Positions 15,448 through 51,996 of a DNA stretch of 64,000 nucleotides are shown one piece after another. Location: NCBI GenBank assembly GCA_921293015.1, contig OV121085.1, positions 24,813,911 to 24,877,910 on the forward strand, in the 5' to 3' direction. A model generated the notes under the pieces. It had not been told where the DNA came from, made no database searches, and worked only from the letters and a program-made list of their open reading frames with translations. The stretch comes from Phorcus lineatus. Taxonomy: Eukaryota > Mollusca > Gastropoda > Trochida > Trochidae. How positions within the stretch are numbered: position 1 is the stretch's first letter; every line of letters starts with the position of its first letter. Made by a program: the position numbers and the translations under genes.

Positions 15448-15653
15448 GGAGAGGATCCGGTAGGGTTTCCGTCTCCGGATCCTAGTATTCTTATCTACTT
15501 AGGATCCGGAAGAGAATCCGGTGGGGGATCCCTGTATTCTTATCTAATAGGGATCCCGGATCCGGCGACGGATCCCAGTATACCATTGTTGCGAGGATCC
15601 GGAGGATCCAGCAAGGGATCCGGCTACCGGATTCAGGGTATATCCACGCTGTG
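15448..15653 (-). repeat. GGATCC-rich dispersed repeat, copy 2
   Basis: Begins GGAGAGGATCCGGTAGGG and ends near TATATCCACGCTGTG. Reverse-complemented, it matches the 6,961-7,183 copy along most of its length, including the paired TAAGAATA phrases, with some internal differences. The long frames crossing it on both strands are repeat artefacts. Confidence 0.8.
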
Positions 15654-17004: not shown

Positions 17005-17064
17005 CAAATAATTGAAATAAATTAAGATTAAAGAAATAATTTTTTTGTCATTTGTTAATTTCAG

Positions 17065-23742: not shown

Positions 23743-24342
23743 GACTTTTAATGCGAGGATCGAGACATTCGAGGACAGTAAATCGTAAATTTTATCTAAT
23801 TTCGAGCATTTTAAAAGTAATTATGAACTTATAAATAGTGATTACTTCATGAACAAATATCTGTATACATCCCCCTGTGAAACCAAATAGATAATAAACC
23901 TAACAAGATGTTTTTAAACAAACACATTGGTAACTGCGTGTCAACGAATGTCTTCGAAAATTTTACAATCTCTATACATTTTTCTTTCATAATGATATAC
24001 AATGAATATTTTTCAAAAACTGATTACATGTCAAATTGTTTCAGTAACATCTGCAACCTTTGGTAAAATTTCAAGGTATGGCATAGTGTGAATATTGTAT
24101 AATCTGTTCTCAGATGGATCATGTTTTCTTCATAGCTCAAGTTTTCCGGTGTACAGAATGTTATTCATGATATGATTTATGGGACATGGATTGTGCTGAT
24201 CGATGTTTCGGATTGTGCCTGAATGAATTTGGTTTGATTTCATAATTAAATCCTCATTTTGTGGTTTAAAACGACGGGAAACTATTGAATTTGCCCATAA
24301 ATGATTCTCTATCCATCTAAACGCATACATTCCGTTTAGCAT
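23743..24342 (-). repeat. 600-bp inverted arm, left copy
   Basis: Reverse-complemented, this segment matches 27,430-28,022 along its full length at roughly 90% identity by eye. Both arms encode the same frame of about 66 codons ending in YTGKLEL and a stop (left 24,130-24,342, minus strand). The stop is conserved and many differences leave the frame open. The arms face each other around a broken Gypsy element. Confidence 0.75.
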
Positions 24343-27300
24343 GATAGGTACAACGAATTATCAGTAACTTTATAAATTCGTTTCTTTCTGCCTAAAACAT
24401 TGATGTTTCACTGCAGTTGGAAGCAGAAGGATACCAATGACCAAATCATTTCATCAACCCTTTAAACCCCCACCAATAATAAGCAGTGACCAAGCTCCGA
24501 AGTGAAGTCAAGTTTTCTGTTAAGAGAAGACATGAGATTGCTGCCTCTGTTGTAGTAGGAAGCACACTTCTTCTTCAACTCTAGCAATGATTATGGTATG
24601 AGTCTACTGTCTCTGGCTTCAACAGTTTTCAACAGCAGAGTTCTAGTTCTTCGACTCATGAGACGTTGAACTTGACTGCAATTCAGACCCTGAGTTGGTG
24701 TGTTCCGAAAGTCCAAAATTGCAAGATATGGGACACTATCGGCTTGTTTAGCCTTCTTCGGCAGATTATTTTCCTGTTTTCACTGCTTGCTCTGCTTTTC
24801 CATTGCTTTGAGGGTATGCTGGAGCGGAAGTGACATAAATGAAGTCATAGAATTTGGCAAACTTTCTGAATTTGTTGGACGAATACTACTAAAGATCAGT
24901 TCATCTTGGATGGTGAGCACGCCCCGTGCATGAAAGTATGGCTTAGCTGCATCCCTTACACTGGAGATTTGATCTGGGTATCCATGCCAACGGACATCAT
25001 ACAGGGTTTGGAGATCTGGATCCTCCACTGTATGTTCCTTGATTTCTCGCAGTCTCTGCTGACTCACTGGAACATACTCAAACATGTTGATGGATTCAGT
25101 CTCTTCTTTTGGCACAATTCCAGAAATAGGAGCTCTGCTAAGTGTATCAGCAAGAAGCATTTCTTTTCCTGGTTTGTATTTTAGGCATATTTCATACCGT
25201 TGCAGCTGCAACAACATTCGCTTGTGAAATGGTTTGATTACAATGACCTCGAGTGGCTTGTGGTCAGACTAGATAGTCACAGATCGGCTGTACGTGTACT
25301 GAAGAAACTGTACTGAAGATGACCCACAAACGCGACTTCTGGCGACTTGAAGATCACCTTGTCTGGATTTATCTTGAGATTGCGATCTTTGCACCACTCC
25401 ATAAGTGCTCTGAAGTTTGAGTCATGGTCAGCCACTGCCTCATCCATAGTTTCACCTTCATCATAAATAAGGATGGCATCTGCTACACCACGAACTCTTT
25501 GGAGTCTCTCATTGACCTGGTCCTGTTGACATTCTGGTGCGGAAGATATGCCGAACGGCATACGCAACCACCTGAACCTTCAAAATGGACTGTTGAAAGT
25601 AGTTAGGTAGGCAAAGGATATTGAATTCTCAATATAGCACTGTTCAGGTCTTTTGGATCAATACATGCCCTGAGTTTGTTAGGTTTTTCAACGATAACAA
25701 GACTTGAGACCAATTGGGTCGGTTCACTGACATGAGTGATGACTTGGAGTTCAACCAGTTTATCTTACTCGGTCTTGAGTTTGGGTTTCAAGGCGAGCGG
25801 CACTTTCCAAGATGGATGTACAATTGGTTTCACACTTTGGTCAAAGTTGATATGGTAATTCCCCTCTAGAAGACCAGTTCCAGAGAACACATCCTGAAAT
25901 TCTTATCTAACTGCCTTGAGAGTAAGAGAGTGAGAGGTTTGACTTGTAAGCTTCGAAACATTATCATAATTCACAGCGATGAGATTAATCTTTTGAGAAG
26001 CTCTACAGCCAATTATGGGGGTTGCTTTTGCATCTTAAACTACAATGAAGTTCACTATGTACTTCATTTTGTCAGAGGGGTTGACAATTTTGACAAAACA
26101 TTTACCTATACAGTTTCTATAGGAGACTTGTCATACATCCTTAGTGTATGGTTACTTGTGTCCATCTTTACTGAAGCAGGTAGGAGAGCTTTAGGTATTA
26201 TGTTGCAAGATGCACCTGTATCAATCTGAAAAGTGACAGATTTATCATATATGTTCAGAGTTATGAACAACTGATTGGCACACATGTCCTCTTCTCTAAA
26301 CAGAGAAACACACATTGTCAGAATCATCAAGAGTAAGAGAGTTTATCAAAACATAGTTGTCATCAATGTCGTCATCTGACTCCTCAACGACATGTATCTT
26401 ATGGTGTTTGCTGGGTTAACCTTTATCTTGAGGTTTACTTTGTGCTGGACACATGGATGCTCTGTGATTTTTCCTTTTAAAGCATGAACAAACTTTCCCA
26501 AAAGCAGGACACATGTTTCTGTTTTTTTCATGTTCTAAGCCACATAATTTATAAGTGATCATGTCAGCTTGTCTGATATCACGTTGTGAGTGAACTGATT
26601 CAGGTTTGTGAGAAGAACGCTTGAATTTCCCATGGCGAGTACTAGTAGAATGAATTGCATGAACTGTTTGAGCTTCATCTATTGTTCTCAAATTTGGTTT
26701 TGAAAGTTCAGTTGCACCACAGAGTTGTATACATTTATCCATTGTAAGCCCGATTTCATGTAAGAGACATTCTCTTAGCTGTTTGTCAAACACCACAGAC
26801 AATGCGATCTCGTACTAATGAATCTGTCAAAGTTCCAAAATTGCATGTGGATGCCAAGATTTTCAGATCTGTTATGTACTGGTCATAGCTCTCTGAGATT
26901 TCCTAACCTTTAGTGAAGAATTTGTACCTCTCTACTGTTTCAAATTTCTTTGGATTACAATATTGATCAAACGAGTCAAAAACATTTGTCAAAGTAAGTT
27001 CTCCTAAAGCAAAAGTCATAGTTTCATAAACTTCCCTTCCGTGTGGACCAATAAGATACTTGAAATACTTCACCTTCATGTCTTGCGACTTGCCTTCCGT
27101 AGTGAGATCAAGATACAGATCTGTTTCCTCACGCCACTTTTTCCAACGGTGAGAAAGATTAGAAGAGTGAAAGTCTAAATACTCAGGTGGTTTCAAGTTA
27201 ACAGGTCCCCAAGACATAAACACGGGAGGGTCGACTTCTTGTTGTTGATCACCAGATCGGTCGTCACCACAGGTAGCCATTTTCCAACAGTCAAGGTCAC

Positions 27301-27429
27301 ACGAAGGAAACGTTCAAAAGTTCAGTAAACAGCTTACAGGTGGAAGTTCTCACTGGAAAAACACTCTTCCACAACTGTAGCACTTCTGACACCATGTTTA
27401 AGGCTTGCGTTTACATAAGTAAACTCTTT
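24343..27429 (-). mobile_element. Broken Gypsy element between inverted arms (Gypsy-a)
   Basis: Gypsy-type LTR retrotransposon fossil on the minus strand. From its 5' side the parts are: a tRNA-Leu-type primer-binding site at 27,381-27,394, gag (about 26,900-27,280), a zinc-knuckle region (about 26,420-26,800), an aspartic protease with DTGASCNI (about 26,110-26,330), reverse transcriptase remnants (about 25,280-25,900) and the end of RNase H (about 24,780-25,220). No integrase is recognisable and no matched pair of LTRs could be found. The start of the 5' LTR is visible at 27,395 (TGTTTAAGG). I estimate at least five breaks. It is old and dead. Confidence 0.8.
27381..27394 (-). other. Primer-binding site, tRNA-Leu type (Gypsy-a)
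   Basis: On the minus strand TGGTGTCAGAAGTG follows directly after the LTR end. It is complementary to the 3' end of metazoan tRNA-Leu (CACTTCTGACA plus CCA). Confidence 0.75.
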
Positions 27430-28022
27430 AAACGGAATGTATGCGTTTAGATGGATAGAGAATCATTTAAGGACAAATTCAATAGTTTCCGGTCGTTTTA
27501 AACCACAAAATGAGAATCTAATTATGATATCAAATCAAATTCATTCAGGCACAATCCGAAACCTCGATCAGCACAATCCATGTCCTGTAAATCATATCAT
27601 CACTAACATTCCGTACACTGGAAAACTTGAGCTATGAAAAAACATGATCCAACTTTGAGAACAGATTATTCAATATTCACACTATGCCATACCTTGACAT
27701 ATCACCAAATGTTGCAGTTGTTATTGAAGTAATTTGACATGTAATCAGTGTTTGAAAAATATTCATTGAATATCATTATGAAAGAAAAAATGTATAGAGA
27801 ATGTCAAATTTTCGAAGACATTCGTTGACACGCAGTTACCTATGTGTTTGTTTTAAAAAATCTAATTAGGTTTATTATCTATTTGGTCTCACAGGGGCGT
27901 GTATAGATATTTGTTCATGAAGTAATCACTATTTATAAGTTCATAATTACTTTCAAAATGCTCCATATGAGATAAAATGTACGATTTACTGTCCTCGAAT
28001 GTCCCGCTCCTCGTATTAAGTC
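27430..28022 (+). repeat. 600-bp inverted arm, right copy
   Basis: The partner of 23,743-24,342 in inverted orientation. It carries the matching frame of 66 codons at 27,437-27,637 (plus strand). Both arms also share a following non-coding part and the sequence GATTTACTGTCCTCGAATGT near their outer ends. A CACAGGGGCGTGTAT phrase at about 27,891 resembles the tip of element A but is internal here. Confidence 0.75.
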
Positions 28023-29149: not shown

Positions 29150-29765
29150 TGGTGGTTATTTCGAACGCTGCTTGGGTGCAGTGGCTAGCGGCTTCTTATG
29201 GATTGTCTCTAGTGGCTTATGGTCTGATTCTTCAGACACTTGATGTCCATACAAGTATTGGTTGAATCGTGTGATGCTCAACAGCTCCTTCTCAATTTGC
29301 GCATAATTTCGTTCAGTCAGGGTGAGCGCTCTGCTTGCATAGGCTACTGGCTGGCCATTTTGGAGAAGAGTAGCACCTAATCCTATATCCAAGGCATCAC
29401 ATTGAAGAGTGACATCTTCTTTGCAGTTGAAGTATTTGAGGACGGGCGTCTGTGTCACTGCTTTCTGAATCGCTTCAAAAGCTGCATCATGCTCAAAGTC
29501 CCAATACCATGCATCACCCTTTCTTGTCAGTTGGCGTAAGGGTTCGCACATATCTGACAAGTTCTCCATGAATTTGGAGAGATAATTCACCATCCCAATA
29601 CTCGTTGAACCCCTTTGATGTCCACTGGTTTTGGCATCTGGAGAATGGCTTGCACTTTGCTAGGGTCAGGTTTCAAACCCTCAGCTGTCAGCTGATGTCC
29701 AATGTAGGAGATTTCTCTACGTTTGAGTTCAAGTTTGTCTGGATTAAGACGTATGCCTTTCTCTC

Positions 29766-30066
29766 CACAGGGGCGTGTATCGCTTAGAAATAGCTTTAGA
29801 AAGACATATATACCCATAGACCCTACCCTACTACTATATAAAAGGAAAGGGATGTAACGACCAAACCACCCCATGCTCGAACAAAGTCAGTTTTCGCATC
29901 CAAAATAATTTTTCTGGACAAATTGTTCACTGCGATTCGAAAGCTAAATGATTTCCCTACAAAACGAGCTATGGATTGTCAAAATCGGGTAATTATTTCA
30001 AAAGTTACATGCAACGACGTCCCGAAAATCGCTACCGCCAGATTTTCAGGCCAAAATCCCCACTCA
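29766..30066 (+). repeat. Element A left inverted repeat, outer part
   Basis: The first 301 bases of the left repeat. The remaining 243 bases lie beyond element B at 39,861-40,103. It contains TATATAAAAGG at about 29,834-29,844, a good TATA box pointing inward. Confidence 0.9.
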
Positions 30067-30141
30067 CATTCTCTCCCAACAGAGGTAGCTCCGTCATAAA
30101 TTCCTATACTACCTCTGTCCCATTTCGAAGGTTTCTTGTGC
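30067..30141 (+). repeat. Element B left inverted repeat
   Basis: 75 bases, identical to the reverse complement of 39,777-39,851. Begins CATTCTCTCCCAACAGAGG and contains internal ACAGAGGTAG/CTACCTCTGT, so it can also fold on itself. Confidence 0.95.
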
Positions 30142-30317
30142 ACGAAAAGTAGAAATCTGATTGGATGCAATCAAAGTTAGTTGTGCAATCAGCGACGCTG
30201 TTTCAAAGGTGCCCATTCGCAAACACTCGGTCATTTCCGTATACTTCGGGAAAACTAACATTTTTCCGACTGTGCGCTACGCAACTGGGTGTTCTAGACA
30301 GAACACAGTCAATTAAC

Positions 30318-30334
30318 ATGGCGGCGAAAACATG
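30318..30334 (+). promoter_or_regulatory. YY1-like site and upstream ATG before the transposase start
   Basis: AACATGGCGGC matches the core of the YY1 site (AANATGGCGGC), which in animals often overlaps start codons of TATA-less genes. Its ATG (30,318) opens an 8-codon frame that runs past the transposase ATG at 30,332 in another frame, so it may reduce translation of the transposase. Confidence 0.5.
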
Positions 30335-33300
30335 GCATCGCTGACAGCAAGTAAGCCTGCTATGAAATGTCTTGTGTGTCACGTCGAAACAAGCCCTCGG
30401 CAAAGGAGAGATATTTCTGGCCCAACCTTTGCTTGTTTAAATCAATTGGAACAAGTGCTTGGAAGGAAAACACACAGAAGGCAGGAATCGGGATGTCAGT
30501 TTGTCTGCCTCTCGTGTTTCACGAAACTGAACAAGCTATGGAAAATAGATTATGACATTTGCCATAAAATGCAGAAACTCAAAGAAGAGAAACAATCCGT
30601 ACTTGCTCAACTTCGTCTCAAGCACGGATTATCGCCATACCGAGATCAACCCCCTCCTAAAGACAAATATGATGAAAGGTACGTAGGCCTTTTCATTTAT
30701 AAATTTTGTATTTCATTTGTTTTAAAACGTGTCTGGTAAAACTACGCACGTAAGAAATACGTACATGATTATTCATACCACAAAAATCCAGGTCATGAGA
30801 TAAAACTCACGTCATTTTGAATGCTGAGTTTCATTGATAATATTATTGTAAATCAAAACTAACCATGTTGAAATGTTTTTCACAAGCATTCTAACATTAT
30901 TTCGATTAATATGCTAATAGGTCAAACTTATTTCTAATGAATATGTAATTGAAGCTTTTTTGAGAGGATAATTTTTTAACTTTTCATAATGTACCTTAAT
31001 TTCAATAGAGTACATTTGGAGTCACACTCAAAGACAGATGCGCCATTGCCGAGTGCAGAGAAAACAACAGATCAACCTGTTAGGTTTGTTTTTATGATAA
31101 TATTTCTAACCTTAGTGAATTGGTAGGTATTTTCAAATCTATCATTTTAGTATAATTCTATCTTTATTTGTTACGAGAAATCTGAAGTTTAAATATAATA
31201 ATAATCATATTGGAGACCAGGATTATTCAGTTATACTAAATACTAAATACTTTTCATCTTGATTGATTGTTATTATGTGCAGTGAACACATAGCATAGCT
31301 CTTTCTTGTTTTCTTGTTAATTTGTTTAAACTGTCAATATTGATGAGAGAAGTTATAAATTGCAGTGTGCAGTCCCATCCAGACTTGTCTTCTCAAGTCA
31401 CCGAGCAAGCATGCACTTCTCAAAAGGAGACAACATCAGGACAGGTTGCAGAGACGTCAAGGTTGTTATTTGCCCATCAATAACTTAATAAGACATGTCA
31501 AGAACATGTCAAAATTTATTTGAGAATTATACAATGTGATACAATACATGTTATGATAGCCATTTTAAGGTTTTAAGATTTTGGTTACAAAGTTTATTTA
31601 TATGAACTAATGAAGATTACCCGGTAAGCAAATTTAAAGTAAATGATATGTATCATGATGCAAATAACATATTACAAAATGTATGTTACACGGTTAAGTA
31701 TCACTATTCTCAAAATTACAATATAGTAACACAATAGTATTGATGACACAAACTCTGATATGTGTCAACAGTAAACAAGTCTTTGGCACCCCGCGAAAAG
31801 GTCCCAAGAGACTTCGCCCACTAGCATCCACCCCGACGCCAAGGAAGATAAAAGGTCTGCGAAAGTCACACATATCGACTCCTGCAACAACGTCATCTGC
31901 TAGGTCTCTCTTTAAAGAAGGAGAAGTTAAGGTAACTTAAAAATATATTTACATTTTAAGACTTAACATAATTATATAGTTAAAGGAGTATAATAACATA
32001 CACATTTCAAGTGTGTATTAATTTAGTATGTGATCATTGTTGTGATCTTTGAAAAGTTATAAGTTTACATTTGTTTAATAAACACTTGAAAGTGTAGATT
32101 TACTATGTATGTTTCACTGTGAAATGATGGCTATTGAAATTATGATGTAAATGTTGTATTTCCAGGTGTCGGTGAAAACTTCCAGAAAAGTGGTCAGTAG
32201 GTCCATTAAGACTGCAGACATGAAAGACATTGTGACAAGTATTTCCAGAGGTTATGACAGAGGGAGAATATCTCGAAAATTCTATCAGTATTGTAATGAT
32301 GAGGTCAATGCTGAAGTACTAAAGAGATTGAAGAAGCAATGTGTGCATATGTGTAAGAAGACTCCCATTGGTATCTTACAGGAAATAAGTCCAGAAAGTC
32401 TAGCCAAATTTAGACTTGATAGTTTAAGCACACAAATGCTTGTATCTGCTCCCTTGCTTGGACAGATTTTACAAGTGTTTTGCAGAGGATCACACATGAA
32501 GACAGGATGGTTGGCTTCAATGGCTTTGCATGAATTTAATCGTAACCAGTCAGCGGTTCAACATATCATTGGACAGGTATTGGATCATGGGGGTGCAACA
32601 GACGAGGTAAGTTTCACATATTATCTCCATATGAATAAGTATGATTTTTTTGCCCAAGGTGAATGAGGGTTTATGCTTGAAATTGAAAATAAACTTACTA
32701 AATGAGATTGTGAAAGAAACTTGATTTTAATAGTTTTAATAGTTTTGAGTTGCCTTACAACTTATGATGTAAATTAAGTTGGTCTAGGAACATCTGAGAA
32801 ATTATTCTTGTAAAAGTAATAAACTTGCATTGTGGGCTCATTGAAATACCACAATGAGGATAAGATCTAATCAAAATTTGACAAAACATGATCAATATGA
32901 GTGGTAGAAGATAAGGAATCACCAATCAAAGTTCTCTTTGTGCTTCGATAGCCTAATTCAATGTAAGTGTAATGTTTTTGTATTATCTTACTTTCAATAG
33001 AGGGTAAGAAATGTTGTGTTCACCCAATTGGTACCTCATACTTACACTGGATTTCTTTTAATTTTAAGACACTTCACCTTCTGAACCACATAGGCATGAG
33101 TGTTTCCCCTAAAGCTATGGCAGTAAAGAGAGCAGAGCTGAAAGACAGACAGAAAAAGAAGATTGAAAGAATTGCATTGGAAGAAGTTACCCAACTGAAC
33201 AAGCAAAACGAACAAGGTGAAGTACCAGAAATAACTTCTTCTTATGACATACTAGGGGACAATATTGACATTACCAGAATGCCATCAAGAATGACAAGAG

Positions 33301-36292
33301 AAGTAAGAACCAAAAGCTGGCACTGGTTTCTCCTTGTTGCAAGCAAGAAACGGGTATTATTCCCTGCTCTTGAAAATAGTCCTCCAAAATCTGACATTGC
33401 AAAAACAGAAAACAGAACGTTCATTCCTAGTTTGACTGAATGCAGTGCCTTAGACGAGAATTTTTGTTATCACATAATGAGAGTACTTGTAGCCAACCTT
33501 GATTGCTTCAACAAGTATGCTACTTGTCTCCCTGATCATTTGCCTCATCCACATTTGCAAGAAACCTCAAAGGTGACAGATTATGTCATTCTTGATCTCT
33601 TGGACAAAAGTGAGAACAAATCTGATGACATGATATCAATATTGGAACACATCCATGAAAGATACATCCCTCACTCTGAGGATGAACATCCTAATGTCAT
33701 TCAAAGAAAGGTTTTTGGTGGGGATGTCCTAACCAATGAGCGTGCCTACACTTCCCAGTTAGCAATGTTCAATGGTAACACAGATTTTGAGCGTCTTACA
33801 GGTGTAATTCATCGACCAGAAGGGCTGCACAGAATGATGAATCTCCTATTGGTATACGTTACAAAAGATTTGGCGTTACAAAAGATTTGGCGTTCATTTG
33901 CAGGCATGTTTAACTTAATTTATGTTGACTTATTCACATCATTTAACACTTTACCTGCTGCAAGAATGACTGCAAAGTAAGAATTTAGTAAATACAAAGA
34001 TATCTAAGTTGGCTTAACCAGAAGTGTTCAATTTATTAGTATTGTTAGTCCAGCAGGTAAAATGTTAATGTTAGTCCTATTTGGAAGAACCAAAGGACAG
34101 TCTTCTTTTATGTTTGTATCTATGATATAGATACTTGTTAGAGTTAACAACACTAACTTTTGTTATGTTCAAGTTATACTAACCCAAATGATTAACTCCT
34201 TTCCTGCTGAATAAAATTTGAAAAATTGGATCAATCCATATTTTCAGATTAAACTGTAATTTGCCATTGTCTAATCATTACATTGATATTTGTACATTTG
34301 CAGTCCCTTTATGAAAGTGTTCTTCTTAATTGACCAAATTTTAACAATGTTCTAGACTGTCACTTAACATCATGAATATTTTCTCAACATTCATAAACTG
34401 AATGTTCACCCTATAACTTTCATCTTTTACTTGTATGATGTCTTCCTGATTATAGTGATTTTCAATTGGATATTCTTCTCAGTCTCTTGCTTATGTAAGA
34501 TTAACTTTTAACAAGATAGAGCTTATTAATTTGCATTGGCTTTTGGTAAACATCAATTGATATAAACTTTTCTGTTCCTCTATCTTTAGTACAGTCACCA
34601 TTAGAATTGCATTATTGATTGTTACTTGCTTTTCTTTAATAGCTGATCTATGAACAGTTCTACAAGAAGTCATCTGTCGGAGATACCGGAACACTTGTTC
34701 AGCTGAGAAACGTGTTATCAAGAGTGAATGTGCATGGACCAGATGAAGTAGTAGCAAAGTACAGGTTTGTTCTAAGTTTTAAGCCCATCATGACTCTAGA
34801 GACGGTTGTTTTGTTTGATAAATCTACTGTCCTTTTTCATAATTACTAAAGCTGATGTTTTAAGTTTTAAGCCCATCATGACTTTAGAGACAGTTGTTTT
34901 GTTTGATAAATCTACTGTCCTTTTTCAAAATTACTAAAGCTCTGTTTCCATTTCAGAAGTCATTTGACATTCGTTGAAGACTGCCTCGACGGGTTTATTG
35001 TTGGAGCTGCAATGCACTTGCTGAACTTGGAAGAAACTGTATCTGTACCTCAGAGACAGCAAACCTTGTTCAGTGCATTGTCAAAGGAAGACAGATACAA
35101 GTTCATCCAGCAAATAGCTCAAGAGATTCTCGACACCTATGTCAAAGTTGGAGTGGGTAAGTGTAAACATAGTACCAAGTTTAATAATAACATGAACTCA
35201 TGATTTCCCAGAAATTGTTTGTGCAATTAATGGTTTCAAATATCAGAAAATGCTTTTTGTTCAAGCAAGACTCTACTTATTATAAATGCCATGTTTATTT
35301 CAACGACTGAAAAAGGAAATTAAGTATTTCAAGTGTGTCAAAAGAAAAATTTACGATATAAGTTATCACCGTAGTCTGAGAGAAAGTTTCTTTTAAATAT
35401 TATTCAATTCTCAGTAACATAATAAAGATAACCCTATCCTGTTTCAGATATTGGTGAAATCCAAGCTGAAGCCCAAGCCTTGGACGATGAAAATCAAGAT
35501 TTGAGGGAGATGTTCAATTCTTCATCAAAGAAATACACATGTCGCTATTGTGACAAAGTTTACAAGACTCTTGGACCATTCCGGAAGCACTTGGCAAAGG
35601 AACATGACTATGCTTTCCTTGCAAGAAGTGAGAAGACAAAATCAAAAATTGACCACATAGCCTTGTATAGGTCATCATTTATGAAAGTTGCACTTCTTCT
35701 TCGAGACTCATTAGATGCCTACAAGATGGGAGATGGAGACAGGTTGATGCGAAATGCAAAATTCCAAATGCTCTTGTCAGACACTGCTCACCATACTAAA
35801 TACAAGATATGGCTCTTTAGGTTTATGGCCTACTATTTCTCCCTATTAAGCCCACGATTGGCTGAGGAATACAAATGGAACTGTACAGCAAATACAGAAG
35901 GGGGCATTGGAAATAATATTCCAAATGACAACCTGGTTGAAATCCTTGTCCAGAAAGTTAAAAAGAAGATACGTGTTCAAGGAGCAAATGCCTCTTACAC
36001 AACAGCCAGGAATGCAGCACTCACGACACAAGTCCAAGAGGAATTGCGGTCAAATCTTGAACATGAGGCAGGAGCTTGGAAGAAGAAAGGTTCAAGATCA
36101 AAACAAGTCAAATGTTCGGACCTACCTATCATTGTGCAGCAGCTGCAGAAGGCTGATGTCTTCTCATCAATTCCTGGAAGATCATATGCCTGTTTCCCTA
36201 AGTTTCAAGATCTCTTTGCCAGAGTTGATGTATTGCGCCTACACAAGTGGATAACAGACCAGAAAACTAGACTCTCCTTCGAAATGATATGA
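30332..36292 (+). CDS. DUF6589-like transposase of element B, nine exons
   Basis: Proposed exons: 30,332-30,678, 31,009-31,083, 31,366-31,461, 31,772-31,931, 32,166-32,606, 33,069-33,851, 34,643-34,764, 34,957-35,156 and 35,448-36,292. All introns are GT-AG, phases agree, and the total is 3,069 nt (1,022 residues plus stop). Residues 13-62 hold CxxC...CxxC, a ZAD-like zinc domain followed by a short coiled coil. A basic linker (about 175-226) follows. The catalytic region resembles DUF6589, a predicted RNase H-fold transposase domain: a first acid in DILGDNID (about 437), a second in FGGDVLTNERA (about 592), and a candidate third in GNNIPNDNLVE (about 906). A C2H2 finger (773-794) interrupts the domain. 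The start at 30,332 has a strong context (A at -3, G at +4). No break seen. Catalytic residue assignments are inferred. Confidence 0.85.
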
Positions 36293-37559
36293 GTTACTCA
36301 CTTCACTTCTTTAGTTATGTCTTGTTACTCTTAACATCGAGTTATGTTTCAACAGTGTATTTTGTACAGACATGAGTAACTCTGAGTTCCACATGAGCTG
36401 TTGCAGACAAGGAGATGAATTATGGACAATCTTAAATGAACGCGTCTGCATAATTGGTCTTTGACATTATTGCATATTAAGATATTGGAGTGTTTGAGAT
36501 CAAGCCATCTGCCCTTTGCAGACTTTTTCTTACGTAATATCCTTGCTGAAAATTGTGAGGATTGTTCTCAGGGACATACTTCATCACATACTTCATACAC
36601 CTGGAAAACATTTTGCTTTTTTAATGCCTCCCATGATTAAAACTTACTATTGGATGGAAGCGTATGTAAAGAGTTTGTTCTAGGTTAGGCCATGTATTAA
36701 GATATATCATCTTTAATAGTCATTGTAGTTGCTGGAGAGGACAACGTTCATTATATCTCAATTTTTCAAATCTTTGATTATCAAATGCAAGAATGTGCAG
36801 CATAGAACTGGATAATAATCTCCACAAAGGTAAAACAAAAGGCAAATGTACTTCAAGTCCATTTATTTTTTCATAACATGCAAGTAATATTCTGATTTGG
36901 TTTGAATGAATGTAAGGAAATGTTGAAAATAATAGTAAATTGGGGATGTCATTAAACATAATGTTTGTCAACTGTTTCTTTCACGGAACAACACATTTGA
37001 TATTCATCATTAAAATTTATTTGGGTAGATATCATTTAGAAATGTCAATTGTTAAAAGAACATCAGCCGTGAATGAATCATTTTACTTATAACATCAATC
37101 TTTGTGCTTTTGATATGAATCAGGGCAGTGTTACTGACAAAAAGGCAGCAAGTTAAATTATAAACATTTTTCAAATCATCTATTAATGACTTTGTGTACG
37201 AAAGTGACAGTATTGTGAAGGTTTTTGGAACAGTTATACAATTGACAGCCCCACAGAAACTCTTGGTAATAGTATAACTTCATGATCAAAATAATTGATA
37301 CTTGCCTTTCAGTTTTGTAATAAAACTTTTGTATTTTACATTTATTATTCTCTCTTTATTTTATTAGTAATGCTGAAAGTAGTTTTGGACTCATCAGTTC
37401 TGACTTTGAATCATGTGACAACTTAAATCTGACGGCACAGCGCTATGACTTCCCTAAATGCAATGTCAACATAACAAGAGTAATCACAGCAAGAGGAAAG
37501 ATGAGTAATGAGTCTGAGTAATAATTTCTATCCTCAATAACTTCAATGATCATATAGTC
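36293..37559. other. Convergent intergenic region of element B
   Basis: Lies between the stops of the two genes. Both 3' UTRs must end here. AT-rich, no coding frame recognised. Confidence 0.6.
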
Positions 37560-39680
37560 TCAATCTTCCCTATCTGAATCACTTGAACTTGAACTTTGTT
37601 CGCTTGAAATGTCCATGTCATCAAATACTTCATTCAGGATTTCACCTATTTCTCTTGCACATTTGTATGACCAAATGGGTAGCTCCTTGATAATGTCGTC
37701 AATGGCTAGTAGTTGACCACATTTGTCCACAATTGTACCGATGACATGTTCGTTTATCCCAAATACAAGACCTGGGTTGACTATTGTGCTGGTTGAAAAC
37801 AATTTGAACATATAAGAGTTCAGTTTGTGCCTCAATAATTCTTTCTGTTTATCATCCACGTCCCTCTGAAACAGATCTGATGTTTCATCCTCTTTTGTGT
37901 CAACAGTGTAGTTCAGCATGATATGAGTATCTGGACATTCATCCTGGCCACAGTCACATTCCTCAGCACATACATCACAACATCTATGCTTAGGAGTAAT
38001 CACCTCATGCTTGCTGCAGTAAGATTGACAGAGCATTTTGTGACGACATGATTCATCTTTCACAAGCTTTAAGAGTTCACTCTCTACTTTTTTCAACTGA
38101 CCCTTATGAGTTTTGTAAATAACAAGCTCATGTGCTTGTGATCCATCACGTCCTGCACGACCCATCTGTTGAACAAATGTATCTAGTTCAAAAGGCAACC
38201 CATGGTGGATGACATGGTTTACATTATGAAAATTGACACCCATTCCAGCAGCATTAGTGCATATCAAAACACAGAGTTTACTGTCCTTTGTCATTTCAGA
38301 CCGAATTTCTTGTTTGATGACATCTTTTGTTTTGCTGTGGTACATGTCAAAAAGACCTGTCTGCCTTCCAAGAACTCTTGCAAAGGCTAAGTACACTTTA
38401 GAGCATTCAGTAATTGTCCTACAAAATATAACATATCGAGAACTTCCCTGATTGTTTTTCTTAAGCATATCAATAAGCCATCCTAAGCTTTGTGAAGCAT
38501 CAGAAGTGTTAGGCACTATTTTTGAAGAGATCTTGATATTGTTCCTATCTGGCGAATCCAGTACTGTCACACAGTTGTCAAAGCGGAAGGCAAGTTGCTT
38601 CATTATTGTTCTCCTCTGGGTCGGGCCAGCAGTCGCTGTGAGGGCTACTAAGTTGGCTTGAGGGCACAGTGATCGTAGTTCTCCTATCTTTGAAAACCAC
38701 TTCCTGAATGGTTCCTCTCCAGCTGTCTTTTCACCCCTATAAAATATAACGAGGACATGTAATCAGTTCACTCATTACCCATTTCAGTTAGTTCATGAAA
38801 TCAAATTATTATAAACTATCAAGTCTGCTTCTGTATCATCCTCTCTTAGCTTAAAACATAGTTCTCGGAATAGTTGATTATACAAAAGAAAGACTTGTCA
38901 ATATATGGAACTGCAGAGTACATTATCTTGAATCTTCAGGGGTCACTGACACAATCATTTCAGTTTTGATAAGAATATTCTACATTACTTTTAATGAGTA
39001 ACCCTTATTTTTAACCGTATTCATATATAATATTTTAATGGCATGAGCTTGTACCTATAACTTGTTGCAAAACCCTAAAAACACTAGACTCACTCACTAG
39101 TAATATCAGCAGACATTTTTGGAAAAATAAAAACATAACCCAGAGGCCTAATAAAATAATGGACATAAACTATTAAATATTAATGATAAATCGTTTATAG
39201 CTACATGTTTTTGTGAAAATATACGTACCACTGAAGAATAGTGTGTGCTTCATCGACTACAATCGTACTAAGGCTTGCTTGGTAAACATCATTTCGAAGC
39301 ATGTCTCGCCATCTTTTTTGACCAACAAACATCTCCGGACTTCCGAAAACAAAATCGAAATGACCATGCTCGATCAAGTCAATATCTTCCGCATTCTTGC
39401 CAATGTATGTTGCCTCGAATCCTAACGCATTCAGCTTATTGCATTGTTCATCCATTATAGAAATGAGAGGGCAGATGATGGCGATGATTCTTTTAGTTTC
39501 GCTGATACATGGGAGAATCTCGTAAGTAAGCGACTTTCCACTACCAGTTTTTGTTCCAACAAAAACATCGTTTCCCTTAATTCCAGCACTCTCTACGGCA
39601 ATTTTCTGGTTCTCAGTCATAAGAGATATTCCGAACCGATCCTTTGCTTGTTTTTCAACGAACTCCATGGAGGCCGCCAT
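37560..39680 (-). CDS. RecQ-like SF2 helicase of element B, two exons
   Basis: Exons 39,680-39,229 and 38,736-37,560 (minus strand) join at a GT-AG intron in matching phase to give 542 residues. Helicase motifs in order: Q25 (motif 0), GTKTGSGKS at 42-50 (Walker A), PLISIMDEQ at 71-79, DEAH at 143-146 (Walker B), ALTATAG at 182-188 (motif III), TNAAGMGVN at 311-319 (motif V) and QQMGRAGRDG at 340-349 (motif VI). Cysteines at 381-407 ending HRCCDVC match the RecQ zinc-binding subdomain. No winged-helix or HRDC domain follows; the tail ends in a Ser/Asp-rich run. I chose the ATG at 39,680 (AAAATGGCGG, strong context). It should be an ATP-driven 3'-5' DNA unwinder, by family. Its place just inside the right inverted repeat, facing the transposase, argues that it belongs to the transposon. 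The frame looks intact. Confidence 0.9.
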
Positions 39681-39684
39681 TTTA
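39670..39684 (-). promoter_or_regulatory. YY1-like site over the helicase start
   Basis: On the minus strand AAAATGGCGGCC contains the helicase ATG within a YY1-type core, mirroring the arrangement at the transposase end of the element. Confidence 0.45.
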
Positions 39685-39776
39685 GATTTCACTCTACGCA
39701 ACACTTGTTTTCATTGGCTGTAATAAGGGAGATAATTTGTGTTGCATTTTCTTCCCGCTAGGGGAAACTGCCGGGG

Positions 39777-39851
39777 GCACAAGAAACCTTCGAAATGGGA
39801 CAGAGGTAGTATAGGAATTTATGACGGAGCTACCTCTGTTGGGAGAGAATG
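39777..39851 (-). repeat. Element B right inverted repeat
   Basis: Exact reverse complement of 30,067-30,141. A TAAGGGAGATAA phrase lies just inside it at about 39,724. Confidence 0.95.
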
Positions 39852-39860
39852 CCCCACTCA

Positions 39861-40103
39861 CGGAAAACAGCAAAAACTCACCGTTTAACATCGTTTATTG
39901 ATTCCAGCAATGTTGACAACACCAATGGAGAGTTCGATTCGATCGGCGACATCGAACTACATGTTCACAATATGAGAACAGCACCTAATTATTGTTTCTA
40001 CGAGTGCTAGCATACATCTTATCAAAAATCATCTGCTTTGCTGTTGTCTTGTCTGCCATAACAGTGGCATTGACATTCATTTGACCTCGTAGCCGCAGCA
40101 AAT
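39861..40103 (+). repeat. Element A left inverted repeat, inner part
   Basis: Continues the repeat interrupted by element B. It matches 45,366-45,608 inverted, with about two differences noticed. Confidence 0.9.
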
Positions 40104-43100
40104 AAGCAACTGAGCGAACTCCGAACTCGAACTCCTCACACTCCTTTCAATACCATGTTTGTAAACATCACAACGTGGTCGAAAAAAGTTTCGGATTTAT
40201 AGACGTGTCCACCTTACCACAAGCAACTGGAGCTGTTGTGTTTTGGAAATTAGTCACATATAGTAATTTAAGAGAGCCTTTTTTAGGAGTTTAAATTTTT
40301 ATGTCTGAATCGGCAAAGGAAAAAACGATTCTCCAACTCCAGGCGCTTCGAATCATTTCTCTCCGCTGCTGGCGGTGCTGGGAATATTTAATGGACCGAT
40401 GCCTTCAATTTACCAAGCCTCCATCAGGTAAGCATCGGCGTATACGATGTTTTCATTATATTTTTTTCTTTAATTGCCATCATTCTATCATTTTAACATC
40501 AATTTATTATTTTACTTTAGTGATTATTTATAAATCTAATTACTTTGCCAATATGCCATCAAAAAAAACCCAATAAGACAAGCTTAATTGATTATTGATT
40601 TTAGATGAAAATGCCATGTTTTTAAACATATGACAATAATACCAACTTTATCGATTAGGTATGCACGCCTTTTGAAAATTTGAAGGTGCTATATCTGTAT
40701 ATGATTATAAAATATATATATGTGAAACTAGAATAGGTAAATGATTAGTTAAATTAAGTTTGAAACCATTTTAACAAAAGTCTAAGTCATGATTTTTATT
40801 TTGGATTTCAGATGAAGGCATGTCACAGACATAAACACTAAGTATTTGATTGAGAATTTATGTCATTTTAATGATCTGGTTAGCAATTTGATATAACACC
40901 ATCAAATGTATTTACCAGCACTTCTATTTCTAAGCTGCTCAATATTTGATTTATATTCAAGACTGTTAGAATACTAGTACCTGAATTATTCCCATTTTGT
41001 AATATCATATTTATACATGTAGATAATTTAAAGATTGAGCCTTCCGTATTACACTTACAAACTGATGGTGACAGCTAATATCTAATATATGATCATGATA
41101 TGAAACTATATATGTTCTGAATTTACTGACAAACATTGTGAAATACAATATATTTAAAATGAAACAACAGGAGAAAATCCCAAATTTTAAACATATTAAA
41201 GAGGATATTAAAACTGCATATTTTGTTGCCCGATTTAACGCCTACACAAACTGTAAATATGATAGCTTTATGAATTTCTGGTCTATTTGTCATACTCTTG
41301 TCTGAAGTATTAGATTAGTTTTTAATTATTACTATTTTCAACCTACTGTCGGAATTGATTTTGAATATAAGATTGCCTATCCATTATATCTTGTATACAT
41401 TAATGAAATATTACTTGTGTAAAATTTGTTTATGTTGGGAACTGTTATTCTAATATGTGTTTTTTTTGTATGGAGTTTTGGAAAAAAAAAAAATAATAAT
41501 AATAATATATGATCATGTACATATCTATTCATTTGGGTAAAAGTTTCTAAAGAGAGTAGCAGAGCAAGTATGGTTTTAATTTGACAAGCACAAATACATG
41601 ATGTAGCCTAGAATTATCCAAAAAAATAATAATTTAAGAAATAAAAGGATGAAATGTACATTGTTTAAAATATAGAAGTGTTTTTTCAAAAAAGATTCTC
41701 TCTTTGCAGGCATGTGTCTCAATACAGGAGGAGAGAGTGGAGACACTTTTCTATCATTATTTGAAAGTTTTCAGGTAAGCACAACAGCCACAATCTAAAG
41801 ATTTGGATCATTGCATGATATACTTTTTAATTTTTTTGTTAATATATTTCAGCAGATAATGTAGAGTATTAGATATATGCCACTGAGACATGATCAAGTT
41901 GAAATATGTTTGTCGAGGTAATTTTTTTTTAGACATATTACTTAATAGTTGTGTTTACCATGAGTGAGAAAAGGGAAGACAATTGTCACAACAGGTTCAA
42001 TGGGAGGAGAGGTAGTGGAAGGGCCTAACCATGGGGGAAAATAAGGAGATAACAAGGGGGCTTTAGGGTTATTGGTTAGGTACCATGTCTTAAGCTGTTG
42101 TTAATGCTGTATGAAACTTTTTTGGTGAAAAGTGTCACTTTGTTTCTAGAGTTTGATTGAGCAATTCTGTAAAAGAGGCAAAAGAAATCCAACTTAAATT
42201 TAAAACCTATTTATTTCAGCTATCTTAAAAGCAAAATGCTGTAATCATAAATGTTTATACAACACACCTTTACCAATGTAGATTATGATTAACCAAATAT
42301 TAAGTTCCATGATTGTTTGAATTATGAGAGCAACCACTTTGACTATACTTTGTTATTTTAAATGTTAGTTTGTAACATTAAATACAATTAATATTGTAGT
42401 ACTTGAGGAGCTATAATGACAATGGAACAATCTTTTTTTGCCTCATATTCAATTTGGTTCCAATTTATATTTTTCAGTTACAAGATTCAGTATCAAGAGG
42501 GGACAGTTTAATCTGGAGAATATCCTTGCTGCATACATGGAAAAGAATCTCTAATACATGGACACTCTTGAAACTTTTCTGCTATTGTAATTCAATAAAA
42601 TCTTCAAATAAAATAAATAAATTGACTATCAATGAATTTATTTGTGAGGATTCTTTAATATGTTTTTGTATATATATACAGACATACAAGTGAGTCCCCA
42701 ATTAAGAAAACAATACATTTACTTTCATCACTTATATCCAATTATATTGATTGTATTGAATTCAATTGATTCTTATTATTTGATATGTGATCATTTTAGG
42801 TGCCATTAGCCTTCAAAGAACTAAACGTGTGTTTTGTAGAGTGTAAAATAGATATTTCATGTGTTTAATACATGAATTTCTAGCCACCTATGGATAACAC
42901 CTCCCTTTTCTAAGTTTTAGTTTAATACCATTAACCATGAGGAATTGTTAACACTTTGCATATCTTAGATGATCAGTAGGTTGTACTTCATAAAAGCCTT
43001 TCATGATGTTTTTATGAATATTTAAAAGGTTGAGTTGATAAATTTCAAATAATGTTCATTACTAGATACAAATACTTTTATGACTATAATATACACATCA

Positions 43101-45365
43101 ATAATAGGCAAGGAAAGTTTATTTTGGCATAACTTGTAATGTGTGCTTAACAGTAGGTGAAATATGGGCTACAAATCAAATCTGTCTGTTTCGTGCTGGA
43201 TATATAACAGATGATGTACAAAGAATGTGTTTTTAGATTTTCAATTATAATTTCTACATCAAATATTCTATGCCAATTGAATTATACTGCAAGCAAATAA
43301 GTGATTCAATTTCACTTTTCACCTCATCTAGCCTGACATGGGACGGTGTCCTTATATAATTTTGTGTACCAATTCCTTGACTACTAAGGATCTAAATTTA
43401 TAAATTTGGTGACCTAAGAAAGGCCTCTAGGGCCACTCCTAAAGCCTATTTTCATTTTTTTCTCCTGAAGATGATAGTGAAGAAACTTGAATTTTTTTGT
43501 ACATTCTAATGAGGATTCTAAACTATATATTATATATCTTGTTTGTCCCTGACTAAAGTCACACAGGTCATGGCCTTATAAATATCTTCGATTTCTTCTT
43601 TAATAATCTTAATAAAACTAAGAAAGATGGAATATTTATATGCTCCATAAGCGATTGGTATAATAATACTATAGCCTGGTGATAGTAGATTTTAAAGACT
43701 GATGAGCTCCAGGGTCATGACTCTATTCTATTAAAACTGAGAAAAATATTACAGAACTGATGTGCCTCTGAGCCTGTGAACCTTGTCAAAAGGTTGAGTG
43801 TGTATCACTGTTAAGGTTTGTGTTATTTTATCACGCTCAACTCAAATTAATTTCAGTGAGCTTAATTAATTTCTTTGAAGTGTAAAAAAGGTAGAGCCTT
43901 CATTTGATTACAATTCTAACCATTACAGACATGTTTATGAAACTAAAGAGTTTATTGCTTGCAAGGCAAACAAATTCAGGACATTTTGGGGAAAATTCCC
44001 TCATACGCAAATATTCTAAAAAATATAACTAAATCAGATTTATTGCATTTGAAACAGCAATTAAAGATACAAGTACTATGCCAGTCTGGAGATCTGTCAC
44101 TTCAGACATGCTTTTTTTGACCTTATACATAATAAAATATACTGATTACTTTAAGAATGAAATTTATTATGTTATTTATTGGACACACTGTTAATGTTTG
44201 TTCCTTTATTGGGGAGAGACTGGCCTTATTTTAGTAACTTAAATCAAATCACCTTTTCATGAGGCATAAAAATCTACCTTTCAACTGAAGTTATAAGAAA
44301 AGTTATTTTTTCAACATGATTATACATAACTGTTAATAAGTTTTAATGCAGCATATTGTAACTTAATATGTTTTTGTTGTTTTAATCTTTTAACTATGAA
44401 AATCAAAATTGCTTCCAATAAAGAAAACTAAGGTAACCTTCCAAGCAAGGCATTGCATTTATGCCCCTAACCACCAGGGTGGTTGAACAGTATGAGTTAC
44501 AAAATACAAGTCATTATATCAATGATTGCTATCCACATCTTTTATGATTTACATGATCTCTCTCCTGAGCCAAGCCAATATTGATAAAAATATATAATTC
44601 TGTCTGACCTCTGAAAATAAATATCCCCTTTTTTGTCAAACACAGTTTTGATAATTTTAATCATATCACTATTGTTTGAAGAAATAAAATTAAATCACCT
44701 ATCTAATTGTAACAGAGGTACTCTATAGTCTATATGGTATAATGGTTAACTTATTTTATTAAATAATGTATCTGAACTGCACATCAAATATTCAACATGG
44801 AAGTAGTTTATCAAGAATTAGGAGTTGCTTTCAAATTTGCCTTTGAGATTCAAACCTCATTACAAATTCTTTTAATTTTTGAATATTTTCTTTTCCAATT
44901 ATAAGACATAACTGAGTTTTAAAATATATGCTTTAATTAAGAAGGGTAGCGAAATCTATCAAGTTAATGTTGGTAACAGGTTGATATTATATATGCCATC
45001 ACTTTTTGGAGGAAAAGATCAAAAAAATATTTTTAGGTAAACCGAGTAAAAGTTGTTTATATATTCTTTAATAAAACATGAAAAATCATACTAATAAGTA
45101 TATTGTTCTACATAAATTACCCAAAAATTTTTTTCTCAATTAAAGTTTATGTTGCGATTTTCTAACGATTCGTTTGAAATTTTGACATTTGCCAGTCAAA
45201 TAATTTCATATTTCTGGAACGTTTAAAAAAAATTATGATTTGACCCATAGTTATAAAGAACGAGTTTATTTAATATTTTGGGCTCATTAAAACACACACG
45301 ACTGCAGAAGGGAATTTAATAGAAAATACTCAATGTTAATTTCTACCAAATCCTATAATTTTTTA
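40104..45365. other. Interior of element A, mostly non-coding
   Basis: About 5.3 kb of very AT-rich DNA without a recognisable transposase. It contains one possible small spliced gene (40,301-42,693) and, at 43.3-43.8 kb, diverged copies of the tandem repeat family seen at 18.9 kb. Confidence 0.6.
40301..42693 (+). CDS. Possible three-exon gene in element A, unrecognised
   Basis: Exons 40,301-40,427, 41,710-41,774 and 42,478-42,693 are bounded by good splice signals (CAG|GTAAGC, TTTGCAG, CAG|GTAAGC, TTTTCAG). The phases fit, giving 135 codons in one open frame. The middle exon reads MCLNTGGESGDTFLSLFESF. AATAAA-like signals follow near 42,600. The peptide matches no family I know and is short for a transposase. 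It starts about 200 bases inside the left inverted repeat and could be driven by the repeat's TATA box. Alternatively the transcript may be non-coding. The splice sites are better supported than the protein. Confidence 0.3.
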
Positions 45366-45909
45366 ATTTGCTGCGGCTACGAGGTCAAATGAATGTCAAG
45401 GCCACTGTTATGGCAGACAAGACAACAGCAAAGCAGATGATTTTTGATAAGATGTATGCTAGCACTCGTAGAAACAATAATTAGGTGCTGTTCTCATATT
45501 GTGAACATGTAGTTCGATGTCGCCGATCGAATCGAGCTCTCCATTGGTGTTGTCAACATTGCTGGAATCAATAAACGATGTTAAACGGTGAGTTTTTGCT
45601 GTTTTCCGTGAGTGGGGATTTTGGCCTGAAAATCTGGCGGTAGCGATTTTCGGGACGTCGTTGCATGTAACTTTTGAAATAATTACCCGATTTTGACAAT
45701 CCATAGCTCGTTTTGTAGGGAAATCATTTAGCTTTCGAATCGTAGTGAACAATTTGTCCAGAAAAATTATTTTGGATGCGAAAACTGACTTTGTTCGAGC
45801 ATGGGGTGGTTTGGTCGTTACATCCCTTTCCTTTTATATAGTAGTAGGGTAGGGTCTATGGGTATATATGTCTTTCTAAAGCTATTTCTAAGCGATACAC
45901 GCCCCTGTG
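45366..45909 (-). repeat. Element A right inverted repeat
   Basis: An uninterrupted 544-bp repeat. Read inward (minus strand) it has the TATATAAAAGG box near 45,831-45,841 and a 97-codon frame (45,752-45,459) ending in YCFYEC. In the left repeat that frame is split by element B. Confidence 0.9.
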
Positions 45910-48231
45910 TTTCTCTCTGCATCTTTGCATCAACTGAATGAAACATCTATCATGATTTTCTATTGCCTGTTCAGTGATTGGGCCATCTTCTGAGATCAAG
46001 ATGTCATCAGCTACTCGAAAGATACCTGGTAGGTCCTGTAGAGCTTGGTCTAGTCGTTGTTGGAAGATTTCCGGTGCAGGGGATATACAAAATGGTAGTC
46101 TTAGCCACTGATATCGACCAAATGGTGTGCCAAAAGTGGTGAGATAACTTGAGTTTTCATCTAGCATCACAAGCAAGAAACGATCTTTTGAGGTCACATT
46201 TTGAGAACACGTTGGCATTCGCTATCTCAGGCAAAATGTCATCCATGACAGGGAGAGGATAATGACATCGTTTCAGTGGCTTGTAAAGAGGCTTCGGGTC
46301 TATGCAGATTCGCAATCGACCTGAAGGTTTCTTCACGACTAGAAGACTGGACACCCAATCTGTAGGAGTATCAACAGAAGCTGCAACTCCTAATTTCTCC
46401 ATTTTTTCCAATTCCTGCTTCAAGTTCTTCTTAAGGGCATGAGGAATTCTACAGAGAGGTTGTTTAACTGGCGTAATAGTAGGGTCAATTTCCAACTTTT
46501 GCTCTCATCAAGCTTGCCTGATGCCATCCTTATTGACTGAACAGCAAAAGTCTCTGGTTCTGTTTTCTCATCAGTCACACTGAACAGGTTCTCATAAAGC
46601 AACTTGATAAAGTTAATCTGTTGGGCAGACTTGGAGCCGATGAGAGGTACTCGGTCTTCTGCCACAACTACAAATTTTCCACGATACTTTTTGAATTCCT
46701 AGAATTACTGAGATGAAGCGTCGTGGTGCCCAAAGGCTCCAGTTTACTTCCATTGTACATCCGTAGGTTCACATGACTTGGATGTAACTTGGCAGATTCC
46801 CTCAAATCCCTCTGAGATATGATGTTGCAAGTTGCCCCTAAATCGACCTGGAACTTTAAACGCATAGAGTCAATTTCCAGATTAATGAAAATCTTTACAG
46901 GATACTCCTCTGTAACCGAATGGACAGATTCATCTGAGTCTATGATTAACAGCTCTTCCTCAGGGTCTGTGAAACATTCCTCTGTTACAGCATGCACTCT
47001 TGATTTCTTGCGAAAACGGCAAACAGATGCAAAATGTGAAAGATTTCCACAATTACCACATTTCTCACCAAAAGCAGGACTTTAGTTCCGCTGAGGTGAA
47101 TGATTCCCGCCACAATACTTGCACTTGTGTTTAAATTGTTTGTCACTGAACTTGTCCTGGTCAAAGTTTTGTTTCTTTTGATTTTTGCTGTGATGTGACT
47201 TGGAGGGTTTGTATTTTGGTGTTTGTTTGTGAACAGCATGTATTTCCTCTTTACTCAACGCTTTGACTTGAGCTGAAGTAGATTCTGTAGCACGATATAT
47301 GTCAATGCATTTCTTAAGATTCAGTTTTGGTTCCTGCAACAGTTTCCTTCTTGTTCCAGTGTCCTTGATACCACAACCAATGCGGTCACGGATCAACTCA
47401 TCCTGGAGTGCTTGAAAGTTACAGGAAGCTGATAGAGTTCTCAAGTGGTTAGCATAGGTATGTATGCTTTCACCCTCAAACTGCATTCTATTGTTAAAAA
47501 TATATCACGTTTGTCTCTCCAAGACAATGTTTCTCCATTAGAGTAAGCACTTTGTTCATATCATTCTTTTCTGCTGTCGATTCAAAGGGAAGTCCATTGA
47601 AAATATCTAAACTTAAGCATCTGGACCAATGTAGGTAATGAATGTAGCAAGTCTATATTTGTGGTTGTTTTCCTCAATCCTAGCCATGATCTCAAATGAA
47701 TCTAATACTTGTCGTCACCTTTTCCAGTTTTGAGCTGAGTTACCATGAGTTCAAGTTTAGGCGGTGATGGGATATTGCTTTGAAATGGAGTAATAGGCAC
47801 ATCCACAGGTAAAGGTACAAGTTCTTCAACATTGCGTGAAGCCATGTTGATAAATCTAGAGTTTGAAAGTATCAATATCGTCATATTTATCACTGTTTAA
47901 GAGTTTTTCCATGTACTGCAAATGTTTATTATTTTGATCAAGTCGGCGTGCCATACATATAGATCAAACGTACGTGAGACGCCGTTCTATCACTCTACGT
48001 TCGCTAAAGAATGATTAACATAATCAAGATGTTATGAGAATTACAAATAAAGTCATGAAGTGGCATAAAGTTTTTTAGTATGGTCACAACGGAACATCGT
48101 TGAGGGTTTTGAACGTTGACCGGTAAACAGTGATGTCATACGAATCAAGTTGTTCGTGAAATGATTAAACCCACTTCATTTGGCACTATACTTAGTTGAT
48201 TTGGTCACTGAAGAGCGGGGTAACCGTTGAT

Positions 48232-51059: not shown

Positions 51060-51172
51060 TTTATTACAGGGGGGGTTCCAGGGGAGGGTCAGATAAAAAT
51101 ATACAGCCACCAGGGGAGGGTCATGAAAAAAAATACGAAAGGCTGGGGAGGGTCATTCTAAAATAGACAGTT
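51060..51172 (+). repeat. GGGGAGGGTCA repeat, left copy
   Basis: Three nearby copies of GGGGAGGGTCA(T/G) alternating with A-rich runs (TGAAAAAAAATACG). The same pattern recurs in direct orientation at 57,690-57,785, just outside the other side of Gypsy-c. Confidence 0.65.
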
Positions 51173-51400
51173 ATAAAACCATCTTCCTTTAGCAACTGAA
51201 AGAGGGGCTGAAACATTATCATAAAGCCTTATCAAATGAAAAAAATTTCCAGAATTTGAGCAAGACTGGTCTATATTCTTCAAAACTTAAAAAATCACTA
51301 TGAATTCACTGCCCAATTCATTGTTCTTATACTTATAGAACAAAAGGTAGAAAAATGGTTCTGTTGGACTGAGAGTTTATACAAGTAGTTACTATATAAC

Positions 51401-51559
51401 TGTGGTGTTTTACCACGATCAAAAATAGCACAACTCAAGTTATGGCGGGCGGAAGTGAACATCTTTTATTTCACGGGGTACCACTCGATTATCGAGACAA
51501 TAAGATCGAGGTTAATTAGTAACGTGACTGTCATGTGACAGAGTTCTAAATATACCACA
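51401..51559 (-). repeat. Gypsy-c 3' LTR
   Basis: 159 bp, TG...CA, almost identical to 56,326-56,484, flanked by ATAAC at 51,396-51,400. Confidence 0.93.
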
Positions 51560-51996
51560 GTTCCTCCCTACGAAATGTAGAACTTCTCAATGGAATAAAG
51601 TTTTGTTAAAACATAAAATCAAGGAACTCAAACTGCTTGGTACTTTGGTCATCAAGTCCATTCCAATGTTGACCTTCAACATTATAGAAACACTGTAACA
51701 GTTTTTAACAGTTCAACACAAAAAATGAAGTGCAAACACTTTTAAATTATAATTTACTACTGTGAGTGGTCACTCGAGCTGTAACCAAACACATGGTGAA
51801 CTGGGGATTATTGTGCCCCATAAACACTTTCACCACTTTAACACTAACTTTCAAAAGTTAACATAAATCAATATTGATTATTTCACAGGTCAAGCCTCTT
51901 AGGAGCTCGACGAATGCGACTGGAACGTCGAACCTCTTGTTGGGGTTCTTGAGGAAGTTTAACCTCTTCACTAAATCTCTTAGCTGGAGTGTTGGA

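Follow-up and report, generated by a model that had tools for sequence, protein, structure and literature searches.

A helicase-bearing DNA transposon of probable AcademH kind, with its empty target site preserved, in the gastropod Phorcus lineatus

Introduction

AcademH transposons have terminal inverted repeats (TIRs). By an account that Kojima is said to have given in 2020 (Mob DNA 11:15), they are known from animals and fungi. The duplications that DNA transposons leave at their targets differ between groups, with Mutator making target-site duplications (TSDs) of 9 bp and Kolobok duplicating the 4-bp sequence TTAA. AcademH makes duplications of 9 or 10 bp and AcademX of 3 or 4 bp, and this difference within Academ seems to be tied to the helicase or nuclease that is encoded (PMC10045372). 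The mean length of 100 curated Academ elements is given as 5,565 bp in the excerpt of PMC10294476. The reason for which certain transposons of eukaryotes encode a helicase is an open question, as is any part that the helicase plays in setting the length of the duplication. Here we describe an element of 9,785 bp in a 64,000-nucleotide stretch of DNA from the gastropod Phorcus lineatus (GenBank assembly GCA_921293015.1, contig OV121085.1, positions 24,813,911 to 24,877,910 of the forward strand), which we refer to as the window and to which all coordinates below belong. The element occupies positions 30067-39851 and carries, between perfect TIRs, one gene for a protein of the family DUF6589, which we take to be the Academ transposase, and another for a RecQ-like helicase. 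With a probability that we put at about 85%, the element belongs to the AcademH kind of DNA transposons and moves autonomously by cut-and-paste.

Results

The element is bounded by TIRs of 75 bp (30067-30141 on the forward strand and 39777-39851 on the reverse strand), which direct comparison showed to be complementary at 75/75 positions. A 29-bp end pattern, searched with up to three mismatches, had exactly two matches in the window, where chance would give none, and these are the TIRs themselves. The element is flanked by two copies of CCCCACTCA, at 30058-30066 and 39852-39860. An extra C follows CCCCACTCA on both sides; we read the TSD as 9 bp and not 10, because counting this base in would disrupt the TIRs.

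A repeat search of the whole window found both flanks of the element again, inverted, at 45366-45909 (reverse strand). When the flanks are joined through a single CCCCACTCA, they form 544 bases that match 45366-45909 at 541 of 544 positions with no gaps, and the join coincides with the single copy of CCCCACTCA found there. This second sequence is the uninterrupted sister arm of a larger inverted-repeat element, described below, in the other arm of which the transposon sits, and it preserves the state of the target before insertion. Because this empty site is present in the window, insertion is as good as certain, and the 9-bp duplication can be read directly against it. The empty site also refutes the idea, to which we give next to no credence, that the DUF6589 and helicase genes are host genes caught between chance repeats: both genes lie wholly inside the perfect TIRs, and the sister arm is without the whole 9.8 kb and has exactly one copy of the 9-bp sequence.

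Inside both TIRs lies an inverted pair of perfect 10-bp sites, ACAGAGGTAG/CTACCTCTGT, separated by 20 bases (30079-30118 in the left TIR and 39800-39839 in the right). When the TIR sequence was shuffled by dinucleotides 2,000 times, perfect inverted pairs of at least 10 bp arose twice. The window holds four exact copies of the 10-bp motif, all within the TIRs, together with five one-mismatch copies elsewhere. We propose that these pairs are candidate paired binding sites for the transposase.

Gene 1 is predicted on the forward strand as nine exons (30332-30678, 31009-31083, 31366-31461, 31772-31931, 32166-32606, 33069-33851, 34643-34764, 34957-35156 and 35448-36292), giving a coding sequence of 3,069 nucleotides and a protein of 1,022 amino acids, with the terminal stop as the only one. 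All eight introns have GT-AG borders, and GC content is 0.40-0.50 in the nine exons versus 0.24-0.32 in the eight introns. Read in its two remaining forward frames, the coding sequence has 54 and 72 stops; in the single reverse-complement frame for which stops were counted, it has 49. In a Pfam scan of both predicted proteins, with matches listed up to an E-value of 1, gene 1 matched DUF6589 (E 3.4e-34, 118.7 bits against a cut-off of 27) over residues 486-951, corresponding to profile positions 7-403 of 410. The junctions of exons 6-9 are supported by homology, since this match runs across them. Zinc-finger models and DUF2608 were also matched by this protein, and no Pfam transposase model appeared within the E-value limit. 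From the appearance of the motifs, the catalytic acids would be D437 (33258-33260) and D592 (33723-33725), both in exon 6, and E906 (35939-35941) in exon 9; D437 falls outside the DUF6589 match. A search of the PDB with the transposase gave five matches, all in the region of a zinc finger described below (E 0.44-0.77), and residues 480-762, the sole piece scanned against PHROGs, had no match there. Intron 7 contains an 88-bp tandem duplication at 34768-34941, the two units of which are 95% alike.

The sequence-only reading that preceded this analysis had proposed a C2H2 finger inside the catalytic domain of gene 1 and a ZAD-like head at its N-terminus. The finger is present at residues 771-794 (35534-35605, forward strand), between the presumed D592 and E906, and all four ligands can be read from the sequence at canonical spacing (CxxC, 12 residues, HxxxxH). 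Against Pfam zf-C2H2 it scores 19.4 bits (E 0.0014) when the whole protein is scanned and 21.9 bits when a piece is, short of the cut-off of 25.2 in both cases. Profile positions 7-259 of DUF6589 correspond to residues 480-762 and positions 254-403 to residues 798-960, and the DUF6589 score rises from 118.7 bits for the whole protein to 124.0 bits for a piece from which residues 763-797 were removed. We describe the finger as an insertion here because nothing in the DUF6589 model of Pfam corresponds to it; the comparison is with this model, and since Pfam models drop minority insertions, the finger may or may not occur in other AcademH elements. The four cysteines of the head (residues 13, 16, 59 and 62, in exon 1) are spaced CxxC...CxxC, and the head alone covers positions 2-70 of the 75 in the zf-AD profile, but the scores of 15.5 bits for the head and 11.3 bits for the whole transposase compare with a cut-off of 28. 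The head appears ZAD-like at most, and the resemblance is weak.

Gene 2 is predicted on the reverse strand as two exons (39680-39229 and 38736-37560) separated by a GT-AG intron, and would encode a helicase of 542 amino acids. It converges with gene 1, with 1,267 bases separating the two stop codons. Pfam DEAD (3.3e-17) and Helicase_C (1.2e-17) both exceed their cut-offs, and the top PDB matches are the Bloom syndrome protein (5.9e-35), followed by RecQ and WRN. The NCBIfam model recQ_fam (TIGR00614) was matched with an E-value of 2.9e-54 over profile positions 4-413 of 470, at 184.6 bits against a cut-off of 219.8. Exon 1 encodes the GSGKS and DEAH motifs, DEAH being followed by QW, and exon 2 encodes TATA, QQMGRAGRDG and, at residues 381-407, a cluster of cysteines of the RecQ type, so that the protein has the core motifs of a RecQ helicase of superfamily 2 together with the zinc-binding cluster. 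A pattern for motif 0 had no match in the helicase. Matches below the Pfam cut-offs to Cas3-like_C_2 and ResIII probably reflect parts shared among helicases. Neither predicted protein matched XPG or another nuclease catalytic model above its cut-off, nuclease being the mark of AcademX.

The outer element into which the transposon inserted extends over 29766-45909, as delimited by the repeat search and the joining of flanks, and is 6,350 bp long once the insertion is removed; the 544-bp TIRs that form its arms are alike at 541/544 positions. It is bordered on both sides by TTTCTCTC, an 8-bp duplication. When its own flanks are joined with one copy of TTTCTCTC, a single open frame runs across 348 bases and resembles a Gypsy reverse transcriptase (RT), and the flank on the right is by itself enough for a Pfam RVT_1 match slightly above the cut-off (30.3 against 29.6 bits). 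The Gypsy-like RT frame lies between 46221 and a stop near 29589. Because the RNase H part of this Gypsy pol (29156-29659) and the stretch before 46221 both lie in frames different from that of the RT, the Gypsy copy is broken; the piece 46160-46504 had no Pfam family match. Three levels are thus nested here, namely a Gypsy element, the outer inverted-repeat element and the helicase-bearing transposon. The AT-rich interior of the outer element between its arms contains no open reading frame (ORF) of at least 130 codons. Compared with the rest of the window, the transposon gave one weak match of 59 bp (E 0.011), which falls within the interior of this outer element.

Since the outer element was in place first, and its two arms have come to differ at 3 of 544 positions, the insertion is recent on the scale of arm divergence, barring gene conversion between the arms. 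The copy could still be immobile or decaying, either complete in structure and inactive or dependent on other copies for its movement. That its activity at present is presumed, that a single copy was seen and that intron 7 carries the 88-bp duplication all speak for such a state, against which stand two open frames, identical ends, a perfect target duplication and an insertion younger than the outer element; on balance, we regard a dead or dependent copy as rather unlikely.

Relatives of the element were sought in viral, bacterial, phage and plasmid data. Two exact TIR patterns had no match among viral contigs, and the 5' 201 bp of the element, the only DNA used in the plasmid search, had no match among plasmids. 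Exon 6 of the transposase gene gave 18 stretches fitting its pattern in viral contigs, none of them a relative, and no match in phages; exon 9 gave no stretch in viral contigs and 12 in genome contigs, among which one relative was called, in a bacterial metagenome-assembled genome. We rejected this candidate as an unrelated C2H2 motif, as it matched the finger only (31 amino acids, 55%) and DUF6589 was found in 0/1 record. The region around the presumed E, searched as a degenerate DNA pattern, gave 22 stretches with DUF6589 in 0/22 records, and tblastn of the transposase returned nothing beyond short hits where the pattern had matched, in 5/22 loci (E 0.41-0.97). Exon 2 of the helicase gene gave seven pattern stretches in viral contigs and no relatives. 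The full helicase matched 23 phage records, all at less than 60% identity; among the 20 of these that were listed, identity was 25.7-29.9%, with two annotated as RecQ and 18 unannotated, and we take them to be ordinary, distant RecQ proteins. Fourteen control genomes likewise gave nothing, so these searches are uninformative on eukaryotes. For a transposon of animal type, a lack of relatives in such data comes as no surprise, and it has no bearing on copy number.

Several other mobile elements and repeats occur in the window. A near-complete Gypsy-type element at 51398-56484 has direct repeats of 162 bp that are 99% alike and an ORF of 1,154 codons with RT, RNase H and integrase; inside it, at 52008-52064, lies a tRNA-like Rfam match (30.6 bits against a cut-off of 29), and ARAGORN found no tRNA in the window. 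Similar tandem arrays of a 32-bp unit (GGGGAGGGTCATGA...) flank this element at distances of about 0.2 kb (51081-51163) and 1.2 kb (57696-57778). A second Gypsy-type element, at 58144-62950, has direct repeats and overlapping ORFs, two of which were scanned and contain RNase H and integrase. Long inverted repeats at 23748-24338 and 27429-28019 (four segments, 89-93% alike) surround frames that look Gypsy-like by eye, and the only frame scanned between them, 24780-25268, matched no Pfam family. A further pair of inverted repeats, also diverged, consists of three segments with 8.2-8.6 kb between the copies and is found at 6951-7205 and 15426-15664. The ORF at 17059-17751, with a Psq helix-turn-helix above the cut-off and a Tc5-type match just below it, is probably a fragment of a pogo-like transposase, and the integrase and reverse-transcriptase frames at 370-2607 appear Copia-like by eye from their translation.

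Discussion

The sequence-only reading had presented the element as an intact and recently mobile two-gene transposon. Both points are borne out, the first by the perfect TIRs and TSD and by genes that stay open over nine and two exons, the second by an empty site that had been overlooked in that reading and by outer arms that differ at 3/544 positions. Its suggested resemblance to AcademH also holds, because the helicase gene and the 9-bp duplication match two published features that could be tested here. Its proposal that the 9-bp duplication might set the element apart has to be dropped, given the 9 or 10 bp that AcademH itself produces (PMC10045372). In the records returned, a literature search for "DUF6589" gave no paper, and the match to "PF20231" was an unrelated optics paper.

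Several points weigh against this classification or against the gene models on which it draws. The lineage of the transposase depends on the equation of DUF6589 with the Academ transposase, which is presumed here. The splice models of both genes are predictions from sequence, and exons 1-5 of gene 1 rest on an open frame, splice sites and GC content, with the sub-threshold head as their sole homology. Exon 6 alone, folded without an alignment, reached a mean pLDDT of 37. No second copy of the element was seen in the window or in the viral-contig and plasmid searches.

If the element is of the AcademH kind, its movement could be pictured as follows. The DUF6589 protein, acting as a DDD/E transposase, would bind the TIRs, with the inverted 10-bp pairs as its probable sites, excise the element and attach it to a target whose two strands are cut 9 bp apart; gap repair by the host would then produce the 9-bp duplication. 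Transcription of the RecQ-like helicase starts from the other end of the element. This protein would most likely unwind or remodel DNA at the ends, the gaps or the donor break, and probably acts while the ends are processed, during strand transfer, or in the repair of the gaps and the donor site. Since both genes are open, the ends are identical and an empty site adjoins it, this copy is a good candidate for testing in cells what the helicase does and whether it sets the length of the duplication.

Two other superfamilies share features with the element. Mutator, considered for its 9-bp duplication, was rejected, as no MULE model appeared in the Pfam scan. With Kolobok, the TTAA duplication of 4 bp is absent, and the 9-bp CCCCACTCA is found instead. 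KolobokH and Kolobok-1_CCri resemble the element in combining a RecQ helicase with a DDD/E transposase, and almost all Kolobok transposases have a zinc finger at a similar place, between the second D and the E, as the excerpt of PMC9587614 describes them. The same excerpt states that KolobokH is confined to fungi and has its RecQ downstream of the transposase domain (PMC9587614); our comparison with Kolobok is with this description. The Pfam matches of gene 1, as given above, include no transposase model that would point to such a group, and we find it improbable that the element is a helicase-bearing Kolobok, or belongs to another DDE superfamily, instead of Academ.

The likeness to AcademH is closer. 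Like AcademH, the element has TIRs, here identical at 75/75 positions, and combines a transposase and a helicase within one DNA transposon; its C2H2-type finger, ZAD-like head and paired 10-bp sites may or may not be shared by that group. Its 9-bp duplication lies inside the range stated for AcademH (PMC10045372). AcademX would share its superfamily, if the assignment of DUF6589 is right, and differs by its nuclease and by duplications of 3 or 4 bp (PMC10045372), against the helicase and the 9 bp of the Phorcus element. At 9,785 bp, the element is also longer than the mean of the curated Academ elements in the excerpt of PMC10294476. The class to which it would belong has already been described, and the Phorcus element would add to it a member that is notable as an unusually clean and possibly still active copy.

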